NCBI RefSeq assembly: GCF_002933345.1 | Contig: NZ_PDKR01000001.1 | Coordinates: 243,986-307,985 of the forward strand | From: Candidatus Pantoea edessiphila | GTDB taxonomy: Bacteria > Pseudomonadota > Gammaproteobacteria > Enterobacterales > Enterobacteriaceae | Direction of reading: 5' to 3' | Length of the DNA stretch: 64,000 bases | Shown here: one piece after another, positions 4,869 through 63,806 of the stretch | Layout of the letters: each line of letters starts with the position of its first letter | Position numbering within the stretch: position 1 is the stretch's first letter | Notes under the pieces: generated by a model | Told to the model about the DNA's origin: nothing | Seen by the model: only the letters and a program-made list of their open reading frames with translations | The model's database searches: none | Made by a program: the position numbers and the translations under genes

Positions 4869-4991
4869 TTTTCACTCCAGTTCCGGTAAAATTTTAAGTA
4901 CTTTTAACTAAAAATAAAAATCTAATTTAGTATTTTTGATAATTTATTTATTTTTAAAATATTTTAATATATAAAAATATTTATTAATAAA

Positions 4992-25436: not shown

Positions 25437-26888
25437 TTAGTCAGTTTTATATTTACTTAAATATTCTTTATCGATATCCTTAGTTATATAGATACCGTCA
25501 AAAACTGAACATTCAAATTTAACAATATCTTTATTTTCTTCACGTACTGCTTCAATTAAATCATTCAGATCTTGAAAAATTAATTCATCTGCCTTTAATA
25601 TTTTACGAATTTCTTCTAATTTACGACCATATGCAATAAGCTCTGTTGAGCTTGGCATATTAATACCATAAAAATTTGGAAATCTAATTTCTGGTGAAGC
25701 AGAAGCAAAATAAATATTTTTTGCTCCAGCTTTACGTGCCATTTCTATGATTTTTATTGAAGTAGTACCACTAATGATAGAATCATCTACCAGTAATATA
25801 TTTTTATTAATAAACTCAGTTCTATTAACATTAAGTTTATGTTTCAATGCTATATTACGTAAATTTTTCCCTTTCATTATAAACGTACGACCAATATACC
25901 TATTTTTTACAAAACCATGACGATATGGTTTATTAATAACATGTGCTATTTCTAATGCAATCTCATTAGAGGTTTCTGGAATTGGAATTACAACATCTAT
26001 ATTGAGATGTTTCCATTTACAAGAAATTTTTTTGCCAAGTTTAGTACCCATTCTAATTCTTGCACTATAAACAGATATTTTATCCAAAAAAGAATCAGGT
26101 CTAGCGAAATAAACATATTCGAATAGACATGGATTTTTTTTTGGATTTTTAGCACATTGATTAGCAAACAATTGACCTTTCTGATTAATGAAAACAGCTT
26201 CTCCTGGTTCAATATCTCTAATAAATTCAAAACCAACTGTATCTAAAGCTACGCTTTCTGAGGCAACCATATATTCAATGCGTCCATCTATAAGAATACG
26301 TTTTCCCAATACAATTGGACGTATTCCATTAGGATCCCTAAATGCTACTATTCCATGGCCAATTATCATAGAAACTACTGCATAACCACCTCTTATTCGT
26401 TGATGAACACTATTGACTGCTTTGAATATATCGTTAGATTGAAGTAAAGCATTATCTTTAAAAAGACTTAATTCTTGAGCAAATATATTTAACAAAACCT
26501 CCGAATCTGAAGTTGTGTCAATATAACGACGATTGTTTTTAAATAAACTATTTCTTAATTCACTAGCATTAGTTAAATTACCATTATGTGCTAGAGTAAT
26601 CCCATAAGGAAAATTAACATACAGTGGTTGTGCTTCAAAAGAACTTGAGCTACCTGCCGTCAAATACCTAACATGACCAATTCCTATATTACCTTTTAAA
26701 TATTTCAAATGTTTTTTTTTAAAAACATCTTTTACTAAACCATTGGCTTTCCTTAAACGAAAACAATTTAATTTATCTATAGAACAAATACCTGCAGCAT
26801 CTTGTCCTCGATGTTGCAGCACTGTTAAAGCATCATATAGAGATTGGTTTATTGGCACAAAACCAACAATACCAACGATACCACACAT
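25437..26888 (-). CDS. purF: Amidophosphoribosyltransferase
   Basis: PurF makes 5-phosphoribosylamine from PRPP and glutamine, the first step of purine synthesis and of the branch to thiamine through AIR. I chose the ATG at 26888 because the protein must begin [10 protein letters not shown], so that Cys2 becomes the N-terminal nucleophile of the glutaminase. It has AAGGAA nearby as ribosome binding site, and an in-frame upstream start adds 15 residues inside cvpA. The protein has 483 residues (E. coli 505). The C-terminal phosphoribosyltransferase domain shows the PRPP loop [14 protein letters not shown]. The gene follows cvpA after 4 bases, the classical cvpA-purF operon. Confidence 0.97.
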
Positions 26889-26892
26889 GTTA

Positions 26893-27426
26893 TTATTTCC
26901 TTGTCGAAAATGATTTTTCAGCATTTTCATCAAAACGAAAGATTCTATATGTTTTTAAATAATCAAATAAAATTCTAACAACATAATTAATATGAGGAAT
27001 TAAATGGGATCTTTTCCAATCTTCATCTTTTGGAATATCAGTAAAAACGTTCATGCAAAAAATAATTAAAGCCATTACTAAAATACCTCTGATTGCTCCA
27101 AAACACATTCCTAATATTCTATCAGTGCTTGATAAGCCCCTTTTTTTTATTAAAAATCTAATAATATTACTTAATATTGTCCCTGTAATCATAGTCATGA
27201 TAAAAGGTATCACCAAGGATATAATTTTACTAATTAAATTATTTCCGTAAAAATCTGAAATCCATTTCATAACATATTGATGAGACTGATGAGATACATA
27301 AAATGCACATATCCAAGTGGTTAGAGATAAAGCCTCATGTATAAATCCACGAAATAGACTAATAACAATTGAAATGCTAATAACTATAATTATAAGATAG
27401 TCAATCCAAATCATTTTATTATCCAT
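26893..27426 (-). CDS. cvpA: Colicin V production protein homologue CvpA
   Basis: CvpA is an inner-membrane protein with four predicted helices, encoded upstream of purF in enterobacteria. It was first found through colicin V secretion; its normal role is related to envelope homeostasis and is not fully known. The 177-residue protein (E. coli 162) shows [32 protein letters not shown], the central [18 protein letters not shown] motif and a final amphipathic segment. A start four codons further in (MIWIDY) is equally possible. It is followed 4 bases later by purF. Confidence 0.93.
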
Positions 27427-27784: not shown

Positions 27785-29056
27785 TTAGTGTTTATCAAAA
27801 AGTTTATTTATTGAAGTTATTTTCATAATTTCAGTTACAGTTATAAATGAACCGAATACTAAAATGATATCTTTAGGTTCTGCATTTTCAAGTGCTTTTT
27901 GCCATGCACTTTTAATATCTGAAAAAATATATGAATTCTGTAGGTATAATGCAAGTTGATCAGCTTTAGCTCCTCGTGGACAATTTAAAGTAGCACAATA
28001 CCAGTAATCTATTTGATTAATTAAAGCAATTAAAGTTCCCTTAATATCTTTATCTTTTAACATACCTACTACTGCATGTGTTTTACCTCTTTTTAGTAAT
28101 TTATTTAAACGATGAGATAAATAATTTGCTGCATGTGGATTATGAGCTACATCAAGAATAATATGTGGTGATTTACATATAGTTTGAAATCTACCTGGTA
28201 AATTTATTAATGGTAATTGTTCATAAATAATTTTTGTAGGTATTTTAAATCCTGAAGTACGCAAAGCTATTAGAGCAACAGCGACATTAGATAATGGAAT
28301 TTGCGTAAAAGGTAAATTATTTAATAATCCATATCTATCAAATAAAGACCAACTGTTCTTTTTTTTATAATAAAACCAATCTTTATTAACTTTTAATAAT
28401 GTTGTTCTTTTTTCTTTTGCGATTATTTTAAATTTATAAGGTATATCAGGTTCACCTATTATTGCTAATTTCCCTGAACGAAATATTCCAGCTTTTTCGA
28501 TACTAATTTTTTCTCTATCTGAACCTAGTAGATCCATATGATCAAGAGCTATGTTAGTAATAATTGCAACATCTGCGTCAATTATATTAGTAGCATCAAG
28601 TCTACCACCAACACCTACTTCTAAAATAATTACATCGAGGTTTGATTGTTTAAATAGTATTAGTGCTGAAAGTGTACTAAATTCGAAATAAGTTAATAAA
28701 TTATTAATACGTTTTTTTTCAATTTCTATAAAGCTATAAATATGTTGTTTCTCATCTAATAAATTACCTTGAATACGAATCCTCTCAGTATAATTTAAAA
28801 AATGTGGTGAACTATACACGCCAACACGGTAGCCAGCTTGTATTAATAACATTTCTATAACACGACAAGTAGTACCCTTACCATTAGTCCCAGATACAAT
28901 AAAAACAAATTCTTTAGGTTGTAATAATTTTAAACTTTTTGCTACTAATTTTATGCTTTTTGTGTCTAAACAAGTTTGTTTATTAATAAATTCTAAATAA
29001 TTGAGCCATGATGCTAATGAATCTGTCTGTTTTGGTAGTTTTATATTATTTTTTAT
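27785..29056 (-). CDS. folC: Folylpolyglutamate/dihydrofolate synthase without a canonical start
   Basis: FolC adds glutamate to dihydropteroate and to folates. Homology runs in frame from 27785 up to about 29062, but the first ATG in frame is at 28852. Starting there would remove the P-loop GTNGKGTTCR (codons ending at 28889-28862) and the LASWLNYLEF segment, which match E. coli FolC closely. Between the stop at 29072-29074 and 28852 there is no in-frame ATG, GTG or TTG. The best start is AUA at 29054-29056, 8 bases after AAGGA, giving 423 residues (E. coli 422) and aligning within a residue or so of the E. coli start. The rest is intact, with GVGGRLDATNIIDAD, HNPHAANYL and GMLKDKDIKG. Either AUA is used or the gene has just lost its start. 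Confidence 0.8.
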   Translation of the reverse strand: MKNNIKLPKQTDSLASWLNYLEFINKQTCLDTKSIKLVAKSLKLLQPKEFVFIVSGTNGKGTTCRVIEMLLIQAGYRVGVYSSPHFLNYTERIRIQGNLLDEKQHIYSFIEIEKKRINNLLTYFEFSTLSALILFKQSNLDVIILEVGVGGRLDATNIIDADVAIITNIALDHMDLLGSDREKISIEKAGIFRSGKLAIIGEPDIPYKFKIIAKEKRTTLLKVNKDWFYYKKKNSWSLFDRYGLLNNLPFTQIPLSNVAVALIALRTSGFKIPTKIIYEQLPLINLPGRFQTICKSPHIILDVAHNPHAANYLSHRLNKLLKRGKTHAVVGMLKDKDIKGTLIALINQIDYWYCATLNCPRGAKADQLALYLQNSYIFSDIKSAWQKALENAEPKDIILVFGSFITVTEIMKITSINKLFDKH

Positions 29057-29064
29057 ATCTATTT

Positions 29065-29069
29065 TCCTT
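29065..29069 (-). promoter_or_regulatory. Ribosome binding site deciding the folC start
   Basis: AAGGA on the minus strand lies 8 bases upstream of the AUA codon at 29054-29056. It is the only good Shine-Dalgarno match near the 5' end of the conserved folC reading frame, and its spacing points to that AUA rather than the AUA at 29060-29062, which is only 2 bases away. Confidence 0.5.
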
Positions 29070-29082
29070 TTTTATAATTGGT

Positions 29083-29124: not shown

Positions 29125-30027
29125 TTATTGTTGTTTATTTATAAAAACAAATTTTTCATTATTATCAATCGCTGGTGCAGGTAAATTCATTAATTTTGAT
29201 AATATGTTTGCTAATTTATAACGCATTTGAGGTCTCCTAATTATCATATCAATAGCACCTTTTTCTATGAGAAATTCACTACGTTGAAAACCTAAAGGAA
29301 GTTTTTCTCTTACTGTTTGTTCAATAATTCTAGGCCCAGCAAATCCTATTAAAGCTTTTGGCTCCGCTATATTGAGATCACCTAACATAGCAAAACTAGC
29401 AGAAACACCTCCCATAGTTGGATCGGTAAGCACAGAAATATAAGGTATACCTAAATTCTTCATTTTAGCTAATGCTGCACTAGTCTTAGCCATTTGCATT
29501 AAAGATATTAAAGCTTCCTGCATTCGTGCACCACCACTAGAAGAGAAACAAATTAATGGACAATTATCTTTAATAACTTGTTCTACTGCACGCACAAAAC
29601 GAGAACCAACTACTGATCCCATCGATCCACCCATAAAATTAAATTCAAATGCTGCAGCTACAATTGGAATATTGTATAATCGTCCTTTCATAACTACTAA
29701 TGCATCCTTTTCACCAGTTTCTTTTTGAGCATTTAGCAAGCGATCTATATATTTTTTTGAATCACGAAATTTAAGTAAATCTTTAGGTTTAAATTCTTTG
29801 CCTAATTCTAATGTAGTGTTTTGATCTAATAAACTGTTTAAACGATCTCTGGCTTTTATTCTCATGTGGTGATCACATTTTGGACATACTTTAAAATTAC
29901 GTTCTAGTTCAATACGGTATAATATTTGACAACATTTATCACATTTAGTCCATATACCATCTGGTATATTACGACGTATAATAGGAACAATTTTTTTTTT
30001 ATTAGGTATTCGTTCTATCCAACTCAT
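29125..30027 (-). CDS. accD: Acetyl-CoA carboxylase carboxyltransferase subunit beta
   Basis: AccD is the beta part of the carboxyltransferase that makes malonyl-CoA for fatty acid synthesis. The 300-residue protein (E. coli 304) has the N-terminal zinc ribbon with Cys29, Cys32, Cys48 and Cys51 (KCDKC and KVCPKC), followed by the crotonase-like core with [29 protein letters not shown] and [18 protein letters not shown]. The start MSWIERI matches the family. It stands between folC and truA as in E. coli (dedA lost). Confidence 0.97.
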
Positions 30028-30233: not shown

Positions 30234-31025
30234 TTAGAAAAATAGTGGTCCTATCGGTGATTTAGGTAAGCAAAAACATAAAGGATAATCTACTTCGACT
30301 AAATACAACCCTTTTGCTTTTGCTGTTGCTAATCCAAGTATTCTATTTTTTGCTAGTAAAAGTGTTTTCATCCAAGATGATGATTTTTTTCCGCATCCAA
30401 TATCAATTAAATTTCCGACAATATTACGAACCATATGATATAAAAAAGCATTTGCTTTAACATCAATTACTACATATTTTCCTTGACGTATTACATTAAG
30501 ATGAATTAAATTACGTCTATGGTTACTTAATTGACTAGAAGAATCACAAAAAGACGTAAAATCATGTTCTCCTATCAAAAAACTACCAGCATGTTCCATC
30601 TTTTTTTCATCCAAAGGGTAATGAATATGAGCTAAGCCATTGATAAAAATGGATGGACGAAGGTGATTATTATAAATAATATAACGATATCTACGTGCTG
30701 TAGCGCTAAATCTAGCATGAAATTTATCAGAAACTACTTTAGCCCAAATAATAGAAATACTATCTGGCAAATTAGTATTAACACCTGATGTCCAAGCTTC
30801 AATACTACGCTGAGTATTTGTTTTAAAATGTACTATCTGCCCAGTACTGTGTACGCCTGCATCTGTACGTCCAGCACAAAAAACATTTATTGAATGATTA
30901 GCTATTTGTGATAAAGCATGTTCTAATTCTTCTTGTATACTAAGCGCATCTGCTTGACGTTGCCATCCATGATATTTAGTGCCATCGTATTCAACACAAA
31001 GCGCTATTTTTTTTGAAATTTTAAT
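30234..31025 (-). CDS. truA: tRNA pseudouridine(38-40) synthase with apparent AUU start
   Basis: TruA makes pseudouridine at positions 38-40 of the tRNA anticodon arm. Homology to E. coli TruA covers the whole frame from 30234 to about 31010, including KKIALCVEYDG, YHGWQRQ and the catalytic aspartate in CAGRTDAGVHSTGQ. The first canonical start in frame is a TTG at 30770, which would delete all of these and half of the active site. No ATG, GTG or TTG lies in frame between the stop at 31050-31052 and that TTG. An AUU at 31023-31025 stands 7 bases after GAGG and would give 263 residues (E. coli 270). AUU initiation is established for E. coli infC, so this is plausible; recent loss of the start is the alternative. 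Confidence 0.82.
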   Translation of the reverse strand: MKISKKIALCVEYDGTKYHGWQRQADALSIQEELEHALSQIANHSINVFCAGRTDAGVHSTGQIVHFKTNTQRSIEAWTSGVNTNLPDSISIIWAKVVSDKFHARFSATARRYRYIIYNNHLRPSIFINGLAHIHYPLDEKKMEHAGSFLIGEHDFTSFCDSSSQLSNHRRNLIHLNVIRQGKYVVIDVKANAFLYHMVRNIVGNLIDIGCGKKSSSWMKTLLLAKNRILGLATAKAKGLYLVEVDYPLCFCLPKSPIGPLFF

Positions 31026-31032
31026 AAAAATA

Positions 31033-31036
31033 CCTC
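31033..31036 (-). promoter_or_regulatory. Ribosome binding site deciding the truA start
   Basis: GAGG (within AAGAGG) on the minus strand lies 7 bases before the AUU at 31023-31025. Immediately upstream is an out-of-frame AUG-UAA (31044-31039), a one-codon reading frame that may be chance. The spacing supports initiation at AUU. Confidence 0.5.
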
Positions 31037-31050
31037 TTTTACATTTTATT

Positions 31051-61764: not shown

Positions 61765-63806
61765 ATGATTTATATTGATAAAGAATTGAGTTGGCTATCT
61801 TTTAATGAACGTGTCTTGCAAGAAGCGAAAGATAAAAACAATCCACTATTAGAGAGAATGCGTTTTTTAGGAATTTATTCTAGTAACTTAGATGAATTTT
61901 ATAAAGTACGTTTTGCAGATTTAAAAAGACATATCTTAATAGGTGAAAAAAAAAATTACCTACTACACACCATCTTTTTAAAAAAATCCAAAAACAAGTT
62001 GTAAAATCTGAACAACATTTTAATGCTATATATAATGACCTTATAGTTGAAATGGAACGTAATCAAATATTTTTAATTAATGAAATGCAATTATCTTTTA
62101 ACCAAAAAATTTGGTTGTGTAAATATTTTAAAAATAAAATACGTCAACATGTAACTCCTATTATTATTACTGCTGAAACTGATTTGATTAAGTTTCTTAA
62201 AGATGATTATACTTATTTAGTAATTGAAATTATTTGTAGAAATAAAGATTGTTATGCATTAGTAGAAATTCCCTCAAATAAATTGCCTCGTTTTATTAAA
62301 ATCCCCGCTGAACCACAATATAAATACAAACCTATTATTTTATTAGATAATATTTTAAGATATTATTTAGATGAAATCTTCAAAGGATTTTACAATTACG
62401 AATTATTAAACGCTTATTCAATAAAGATAACCCGAGATGCTAAATATGATTTATCTTCAGCGATGGAATCTAGTATTTTGGAGTTAATGTCATCTAGTTT
62501 AAAACAACGCTTAACCTCAGATCCAGTACGTCTATTATATCAACATGACATGCCAATAAAACTTGTGGAATTATTATGCCAAAAACTTTCTATTACAAAT
62601 TTTGATTCAGTAATGCCAAGTGGTCGTTATCATAATTTTAAAGACTTCATTAAATTCCCAAATGTTGGAAATAATAATCTAATTAATTATCATTTACAAC
62701 CAGTACGTCACATTGGTTTTGAAGGTTGTCACAATTATTTTGATGTAATTCGTAATTGTGATGTATTACTTTACTATCCTTATTATACTTTTGAACATAT
62801 ATTAGAATTATTACAACAAGCATCTTTTGATCCTAATGTTTTAGCAATAAAAATAAACATATATCGAATTGCCAAATACTCTAGAATAATGGATTCAATG
62901 ATTCATGCAGCTTATAATGGCAAAAAAGTCACAGTAGTAGTTGAATTACAAGCACGTTTTAATGAGGAAATAAATATTTACTGGTCTAAACGTTTAACTG
63001 AAGCAGGAGTAAATGTAATTTTTTCTACCCCAGGTTTTAAAATTCATGCCAAATTATTTCTTATCTCACGTCAGGAAGGTAATTTAATTATGAGATATGG
63101 ACATATAGGAACTGGAAATTTTAATGAAAAAACTGCACGTATATATACAGACTATTCATTGTTAACTGCTGATTCAAGAATAACTAATGAAGTACGTCGT
63201 GTTTTTAATTTTATTGAAAATCCATATCTTCCTGTAACCTTTCAGTATTTGATTGTATCACCACAAAATTCTAGACGTGTTCTTTACAAATTAATAGACG
63301 ATGAAATAGCCAATGCGAAGCAAAAATTACCTTCAGGAATTACTTTAAAATTAAATAATTTAGTAGATAAAGGTCTGATTAATAAACTTTATAAAGCATC
63401 TAGTTGTGGAGTTAAGATTGATTTACTAGTACGAAGTATGTGTTCATTAATTCCAAATATTCCAGGAATCAGTGACAATATTAGAATTATCAGTATTGTA
63501 GATCGATATTTAGAACATGATCGTGTGTATATGTTCGAAAATAGAGGTGATAAAAAAATTTATTTATCTTCTGCTGACTGGATGACGCGTAATATAGATT
63601 ACCGTATTGAGGTTGCAGTAACTATTCTTGATCCAGATGTGAAAAAAAGAATCATAAATATACTTTCTATTCAGCTAAATGATACAGTAAAAGCACGTAT
63701 CATTGATAAAGAGCTAAGCAATTCTTATGTCAAATGTAAAAATCAATTAAGATCACAATTAACAATATATAATTATGTAAAAAACATAGAGAAATATCAT
63801 AAATAA
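61765..63806 (+). CDS. ppk: Polyphosphate kinase with one frameshift at a poly(A) run
   Basis: Ppk makes inorganic polyphosphate from ATP. Homology to E. coli PPK1 (688 residues) covers the whole stretch, but the frame breaks once. The first frame (61765-62004) reads [20 protein letters not shown] to ILIGEKKN. The second, which leads to ATG 62052 and on to 63806, reads [20 protein letters not shown] upstream of that ATG. Both meet at a run of ten A (61946-61955). One extra A would give a continuous 680-residue protein. The catalytic core is intact, with [12 protein letters not shown] and [22 protein letters not shown] carrying the active-site histidine region. Transcriptional slippage on such runs is known in insect symbionts, so the gene may still work; otherwise it is a young pseudogene. 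ppx, next in E. coli, is absent. Confidence 0.9.
61946..61955 (+). repeat. Ten-A run at the ppk frameshift
   Basis: The run GAAAAAAAAAATT is exactly where the two ppk frames meet. A change of one A (to 11), by polymerase slippage or sequencing error, restores the reading frame and produces a protein that aligns with E. coli PPK on both sides. Confidence 0.85.

Follow-up and report, generated by a model that had tools for sequence, protein, structure and literature searches.

The truA gene of Candidatus Pantoea edessiphila is encoded by an intact open reading frame that has no canonical start codon (ATG, GTG or TTG) ahead of its conserved N-terminal block, and folC, two genes downstream, also begins without one. 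The absence in truA was noticed in a sequence-only reading of a window of 64,000 nucleotides (contig NZ_PDKR01000001.1, positions 243,986 to 307,985; all coordinates given without a contig or locus name are those of the window), and our analysis confirmed that this observation is correct. We consider it probable that both genes are retained, that their canonical starts were lost by mutation, and that weak translation continues from near-cognate codons, AUU in truA and AUA in folC.

The genome analysed (G000) comprises 12 contigs totalling 835,639 bases, and the G+C content of the window is 27%. Edessa, presumably the host genus, is a genus of stink bugs. The genus set consisted of six genomes, i.e., G000 and its sisters G001, G002, G003, G004 and G005, with G018 as the outgroup.

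An intact truA frame without a canonical start

The truA frame runs from stop to stop over 271 codons (30234–31049, minus strand), with neither stop codons nor frameshifts, and is the single match for this gene in the genome. Its product scored 230.5 bits with the profile TIGR00071 (cut-off 142.85), which places it in the TruA family, and 118.1 with a second model, NF000622, under the cut-off of 308. Residues 6 to 262 align with a solved chain of pseudouridine synthase I (1dj0_A), which we take to be of E. coli origin. The motif CAGRTDAGVH is in frame, and its aspartate (codon 30861–30863, minus strand) is presumably catalytic, as in E. coli TruA. The first canonical start codon of the frame is an intragenic TTG past this aspartate (30768–30770, minus strand, codon index 93). 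The sequence-only reading had described a frame lacking ATG, GTG and TTG up to this codon while holding both the KKIALCVEYDG block and the CAGRTDAGVH motif; this is what we found, both elements being upstream of the TTG.

We compared this frame with 109 other truA loci (102 distinct sequences), which were the best 80 of 456 and 29 further best-scoring loci, and which include other insect symbionts. The test was lenient, as a canonical start was accepted anywhere from the upstream stop to the conserved block. All 109 loci have one. The lack of a canonical start in truA therefore exceeds what is expected by chance. In the sisters, the earliest canonical codon is a TTG (G001 and G003), a GTG (G002 and G004) or an ATG (G005). 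All five also have an in-frame ATG within the conserved block (in KIAM or KLAM), where G000 has CTT. This ATG could serve the sisters as a fallback start, absent from the truA of G000.

Candidate start codons of truA and folC

The leader of truA reads AAAATG TAA AAGAGG TATTTTT ATT on the minus strand. The likeliest start codon is the final ATT (31023–31025, minus strand), in frame and 7 nt past GAGG (31033–31036, minus strand), the candidate Shine-Dalgarno. A second in-frame ATT (31017–31019, minus strand) is an alternative start that would use the same GAGG with a spacing of 13 nt. The first ATT, the GAGG and a one-codon ATG-TAA frame (31039–31044, minus strand) are located where they had been reported. 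A Shine-Dalgarno at a workable spacing had also been claimed, and we recovered it with a pairing energy of -5.3 kcal/mol, a value equalled or bettered by 78 of 238 sampled genes (median -3.9), computed with an assumed enteric anti-Shine-Dalgarno that may not be that of this symbiont. We found no match for the 16S in the genome, in which two short contigs consist of N. When the leaders were read by eye, AGG was present ahead of the truA start in all six genomes of the genus. In G005 the ATG is 7 nt past AAGG, like the ATT of G000 past GAGG.

The proposal that truA starts at AUU thus holds in part. The intact frame, the lack of a canonical start and the spaced Shine-Dalgarno all point to it, but the accelerated change of the gene described below leaves room for decay. 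The one-codon AUG-UAA frame had been suggested to influence initiation, for which we found no indication: it has no Shine-Dalgarno ahead of it, and the exact frame is absent from the leaders of the sisters (G004 has ATG-AAT-TAA). It is probably due to chance.

The truA and folC genes are separated by accD (29125–30027, minus strand; TIGR00515, 468.9 bits), which has an ordinary ATG start. The folC frame has 428 codons (27785–29071, minus strand), scored 551.8 bits with NF008101 (cut-off 360), and is the single match above the cut-off in the genome. It too had been reported to lack a canonical start, and indeed there is none until codon index 73. Such a start is present in all 29 of the other folC loci examined. 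The likeliest start codon is an ATA (29054–29056, minus strand) that follows AAGG (29066–29069), with an energy of -5.6 that 69 of the 238 genes equal or better, again with the assumed enteric anti-Shine-Dalgarno, which may not be that of this symbiont. Another ATA (29060–29062, minus strand) is a weaker candidate, with an energy of -2.8 under the same assumption. MAFFT pairs the ATG of the G002 folC with the ATA at 29062, and by eye the one at 29056 fits equally. The Shine-Dalgarno sequences of truA and folC are fair rather than exceptional, though above the median of the 238 genes. RNA structure at the start showed nothing beyond that of shuffled sequences (z of 0.08 and -0.18). The leaders are too diverged in nucleotide alignments (MAFFT) to tie the ATT and the ATA to an ATG of the sisters, so it is not secured that either codon replaces an ATG formerly at its position.

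Start codons across the genome

To cover more of the genome, we compared stop-to-stop frames between G000 and G001 over 404,363 of the 835,639 bp of the former (412,249 bp less three short contigs), which gave 272 reciprocal pairs. The scan flags starts that come more than eight codons late; a lost start that is masked by a chance in-frame codon escapes it. It passed 239 pairs and flagged 33, which were read by eye. Only truA, folC and infC have an intact frame without a canonical start in G000, whereas in G001, for the same 272 pairs and with the same reading, this is the case of infC only. The earlier suggestion that the genome might make a habit of near-cognate starts is not borne out, since besides infC only two of the 272 pairs, spanning about half of the genome, have an intact frame that lacks a canonical start in G000. 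Three frames (L148 7607–7831, L123 11042–11515 and L141 19266–19487) were set aside as truncated or doubtful. Also set aside was a pair (L123 8025–9299, plus strand) in which the G001 counterpart aligns only from residue 242; in that sister the gene may be split.

A second scan, which does not use orthologs, covered 272 frames of at least 120 amino acids (the equal number is coincidental) and flagged six: truA, folC, ppk, murI (L121 158–889), one frame in L119 and one in L144. Three genes of this genome, also among the 33 pairs read by eye, are interrupted by a frameshift at a stretch of ten A. These are ppk (frame 61947–63806, plus strand; run at 61946–61955), with its N-terminal portion encoded in a different frame, the glutamate racemase gene murI (L121 158–889, minus strand; run at 882–891), and hemW (L148 4907–5974, plus strand; run at 4919–4928). 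These tracts may be assembly errors.

The infC gene, which encodes IF3, starts with ATT behind GGAGG in all six genomes of the genus (loci L111–L116). Initiation at AUU is therefore expected to work in the G000 cell, and the infC precedent invoked for truA is found in this very genome. It had also been proposed to inspect infC for changes that relax the choice of start codons. None is visible: judged by what is generally known of the IF3 residues that matter for this choice, the IF3 of G000 is close to those of E. coli and of the sisters. Relative to E. coli it has an insertion of three residues, common to the six genomes of the genus, and it has an R-to-K change in the C-terminal domain, shared with G004. 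IF3 thus looks normal, and nothing points to a genome-wide relaxation. We found one tRNA-Met in the sampled sequence.

Constraint on truA and folC

We counted the changes in G000 at sites that are fixed in the other six genomes and compared them with the pooled changes of four of the five sisters (the pool leaves out G003 and the outgroup G018). As the pooled counts come from related genomes, they are not independent. In truA, 10 of 121 fixed sites changed, against 8 of 452 in the pool (Fisher p 0.001), and the branch ratio of 0.85 ranks 40th among the 43 genes of the window. Hence, constraint on truA is weaker than in the sisters. The intervening accD changed at 3 of 170 sites (15 of 683 in the pool). 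The outcome for folC was the opposite of that for truA, with 1 of 152 sites changed against 28 of 632, which is a difference towards more constraint (p 0.03). The folC product also deviates at none of 79 conserved columns. This is strong evidence that folC is functional, as judged from its sequence. In E. coli, folC is essential. The highest G000 branch ratio among the 43 genes (1.33) is that of another frame of the window (25437–26954, minus strand), and exceeds the one of truA.

The accelerated change of truA at otherwise fixed sites raises the alternative that it is a young pseudogene, which lost its start recently and of which the frame is not yet broken; folC might then be a separate case. 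Gene loss is frequent in reduced symbionts, and the truA product shows two changes, R-to-C and C-to-S, at columns where at least 93% of 102 relatives agree. Yet, two deviations in 77 such columns is near the median of one, and the R-to-C change is shared by G003, in which truA does have a TTG. At a G+C content of 27%, a decaying gene would have to have kept 271 codons without a stop or a frameshift, and with the catalytic motif intact. Moreover, folC is in the same start-less state and is not relaxed. We therefore regard a young pseudogene as rather unlikely, though it is the alternative that survives best. We read truA as a gene that may still be used at a low level, or that may be at the very start of decay.

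Other explanations for the missing starts

A canonical start, given by the true base, might be hidden at each site by an error in sequencing or assembly or by a minority allele. A difference of one base would be enough at each of the two sites. We scanned indels of 1–2 nt in silico over the truA leader. Four edits yielded a canonical start, each of them at the ATG-TAA junction; the simplest, the loss of one base after the ATG at 31042–31044, puts that ATG in the truA frame (ATG-T-AAA). The AUG-UAA could therefore be a former start that one inserted base disrupted, or an error. However, this ATG is not preceded by a Shine-Dalgarno, and a start there would put the AGG of all six genomes inside the gene. 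None of the indels of 1–2 nt tried in the folC leader yields a canonical start. Errors at two starts that are 2 kb apart, in about 3 kb of coding sequence (truA, accD and folC) that is otherwise intact, are also unlikely. An error or a minority allele is accordingly an improbable explanation, more so than a young pseudogene.

The remaining alternatives have very little in their favour. RNA polymerase slippage might bring a canonical start from a different frame into line with truA. A suitably located run of eight A exists between the candidate start and the conserved block (31007–31014, minus strand), in a genome where similar but longer runs disrupt the frames of ppk, murI and hemW. None of the four start-giving edits is in this run, as none of the indels of 1–2 nt tried there produced a canonical start. 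This rejects a rescue of truA by poly-A slippage, unless it leads to a non-canonical start in another frame, and makes it highly improbable. Translation could also begin only at the TTG at 30770, which is a canonical start, to make a product with some other role. Such a product would be devoid of the catalytic aspartate. The part of the frame upstream of the TTG also evolves as slowly as in the sisters (2 of 41 fixed sites changed, against 1–2 of 40–41), and the bulk of the extra change is downstream (8 of 80), so that we give this possibility hardly any weight. Finally, a deliberately weak start kept for regulation, as in infC or pcnB of E. coli or ccpN of Staphylococcus aureus, would share the class of codon and the help of a Shine-Dalgarno, but it is most implausible for a state present in G000 and absent from its five sisters, which is unlike the conserved regulated cases in the available text of the S. 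aureus study (PMC13009471).

Probable near-cognate starts in truA and folC compared with known systems

The explanation that we favour remains that of retained genes translated weakly from near-cognate codons. The canonical starts of truA and folC would have been eroded by mutation in an AT-rich symbiont lineage. The Shine-Dalgarno would then place the ribosome at the near-cognate codon, AUU at 31025 in truA and AUA at 29056 in folC, where initiation would occur at a lower rate than at a canonical start. This would use the ordinary initiator tRNA and the ordinary IF3, like the initiation of infC in G000. We infer both that initiation takes place at AUU and AUA and that the two codons named, not the neighbouring candidates, are the ones used.

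The near-cognate start itself is of a known kind; the truA case occurs in one of six genomes of the genus, with folC alongside. Like truA, infC of E. coli and of this genus has an ATT behind a Shine-Dalgarno, here even in the same genome, but this ATT is kept genus-wide while the one of truA is found in one of the six genomes. In E. coli, AUU is the sole start of pcnB, which like truA encodes an enzyme acting on RNA. One study is reportedly devoted to non-canonical starts in commensal E. coli. In S. aureus, near-cognate starts are described for ccpN (AUA), cvfC1 (AUU) and citZ (AUA); in the text available from that work, a reporter started at AUU or AUA reached, in poor medium, about 10% of its level with AUG, and ccpN up to 30% in rich medium (PMC13009471). 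The AUA of citZ is limited to one strain lineage, which resembles the case of truA and folC (PMC13009471, same text). In ccpN, cvfC1 and infC of S. aureus, the starts have an extended Shine-Dalgarno pairing and are backed by experiments, whereas the candidate pairing in truA and folC is fair (PMC13009471, in the part available).

In the symbionts of ants and aphids (Blochmannia and Buchnera), genes frameshifted at poly-A tracts are thought to be rescued by polymerase slippage, according to the accessible part of the source (PMC3017870). The ppk, murI and hemW genes, with their runs of ten A, match this pattern as it is given there (PMC3017870). As far as the portions available of these studies go, such genes are like folC, and perhaps truA, in being formally broken yet constrained in reduced genomes, but their rescue is by transcriptional slippage, whereas that of truA and folC would be by start choice (PMC3017870, PMC4389277). 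We tentatively suggest, as a possibility that falls somewhat short of even, that in this symbiont lineage mutation towards A+T erases the starts of needed genes and that the ordinary tolerance of ribosomes for AUU and AUA behind a Shine-Dalgarno rescues them, which would be the start-codon counterpart of rescue by poly-A slippage. Our search of the literature on near-cognate starts in symbionts gave no symbiont gene of this kind among the matches listed, which is not proof of absence.

If start erosion is the correct reading, five of the 272 compared genes would depend on imperfect expression, truA and folC by their starts and ppk, murI and hemW by slippage. Start codons would then erode in a shrinking genome while a gene such as folC keeps its full constraint. 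Gene finders limited to ATG, GTG and TTG would call such genes truncated or dead, and the abilities of symbionts would be miscounted. These genes would also show, as a natural test, how far a small genome can manage with inefficient initiation. As the more constrained of the two start-less genes, folC may be a better study case than truA.
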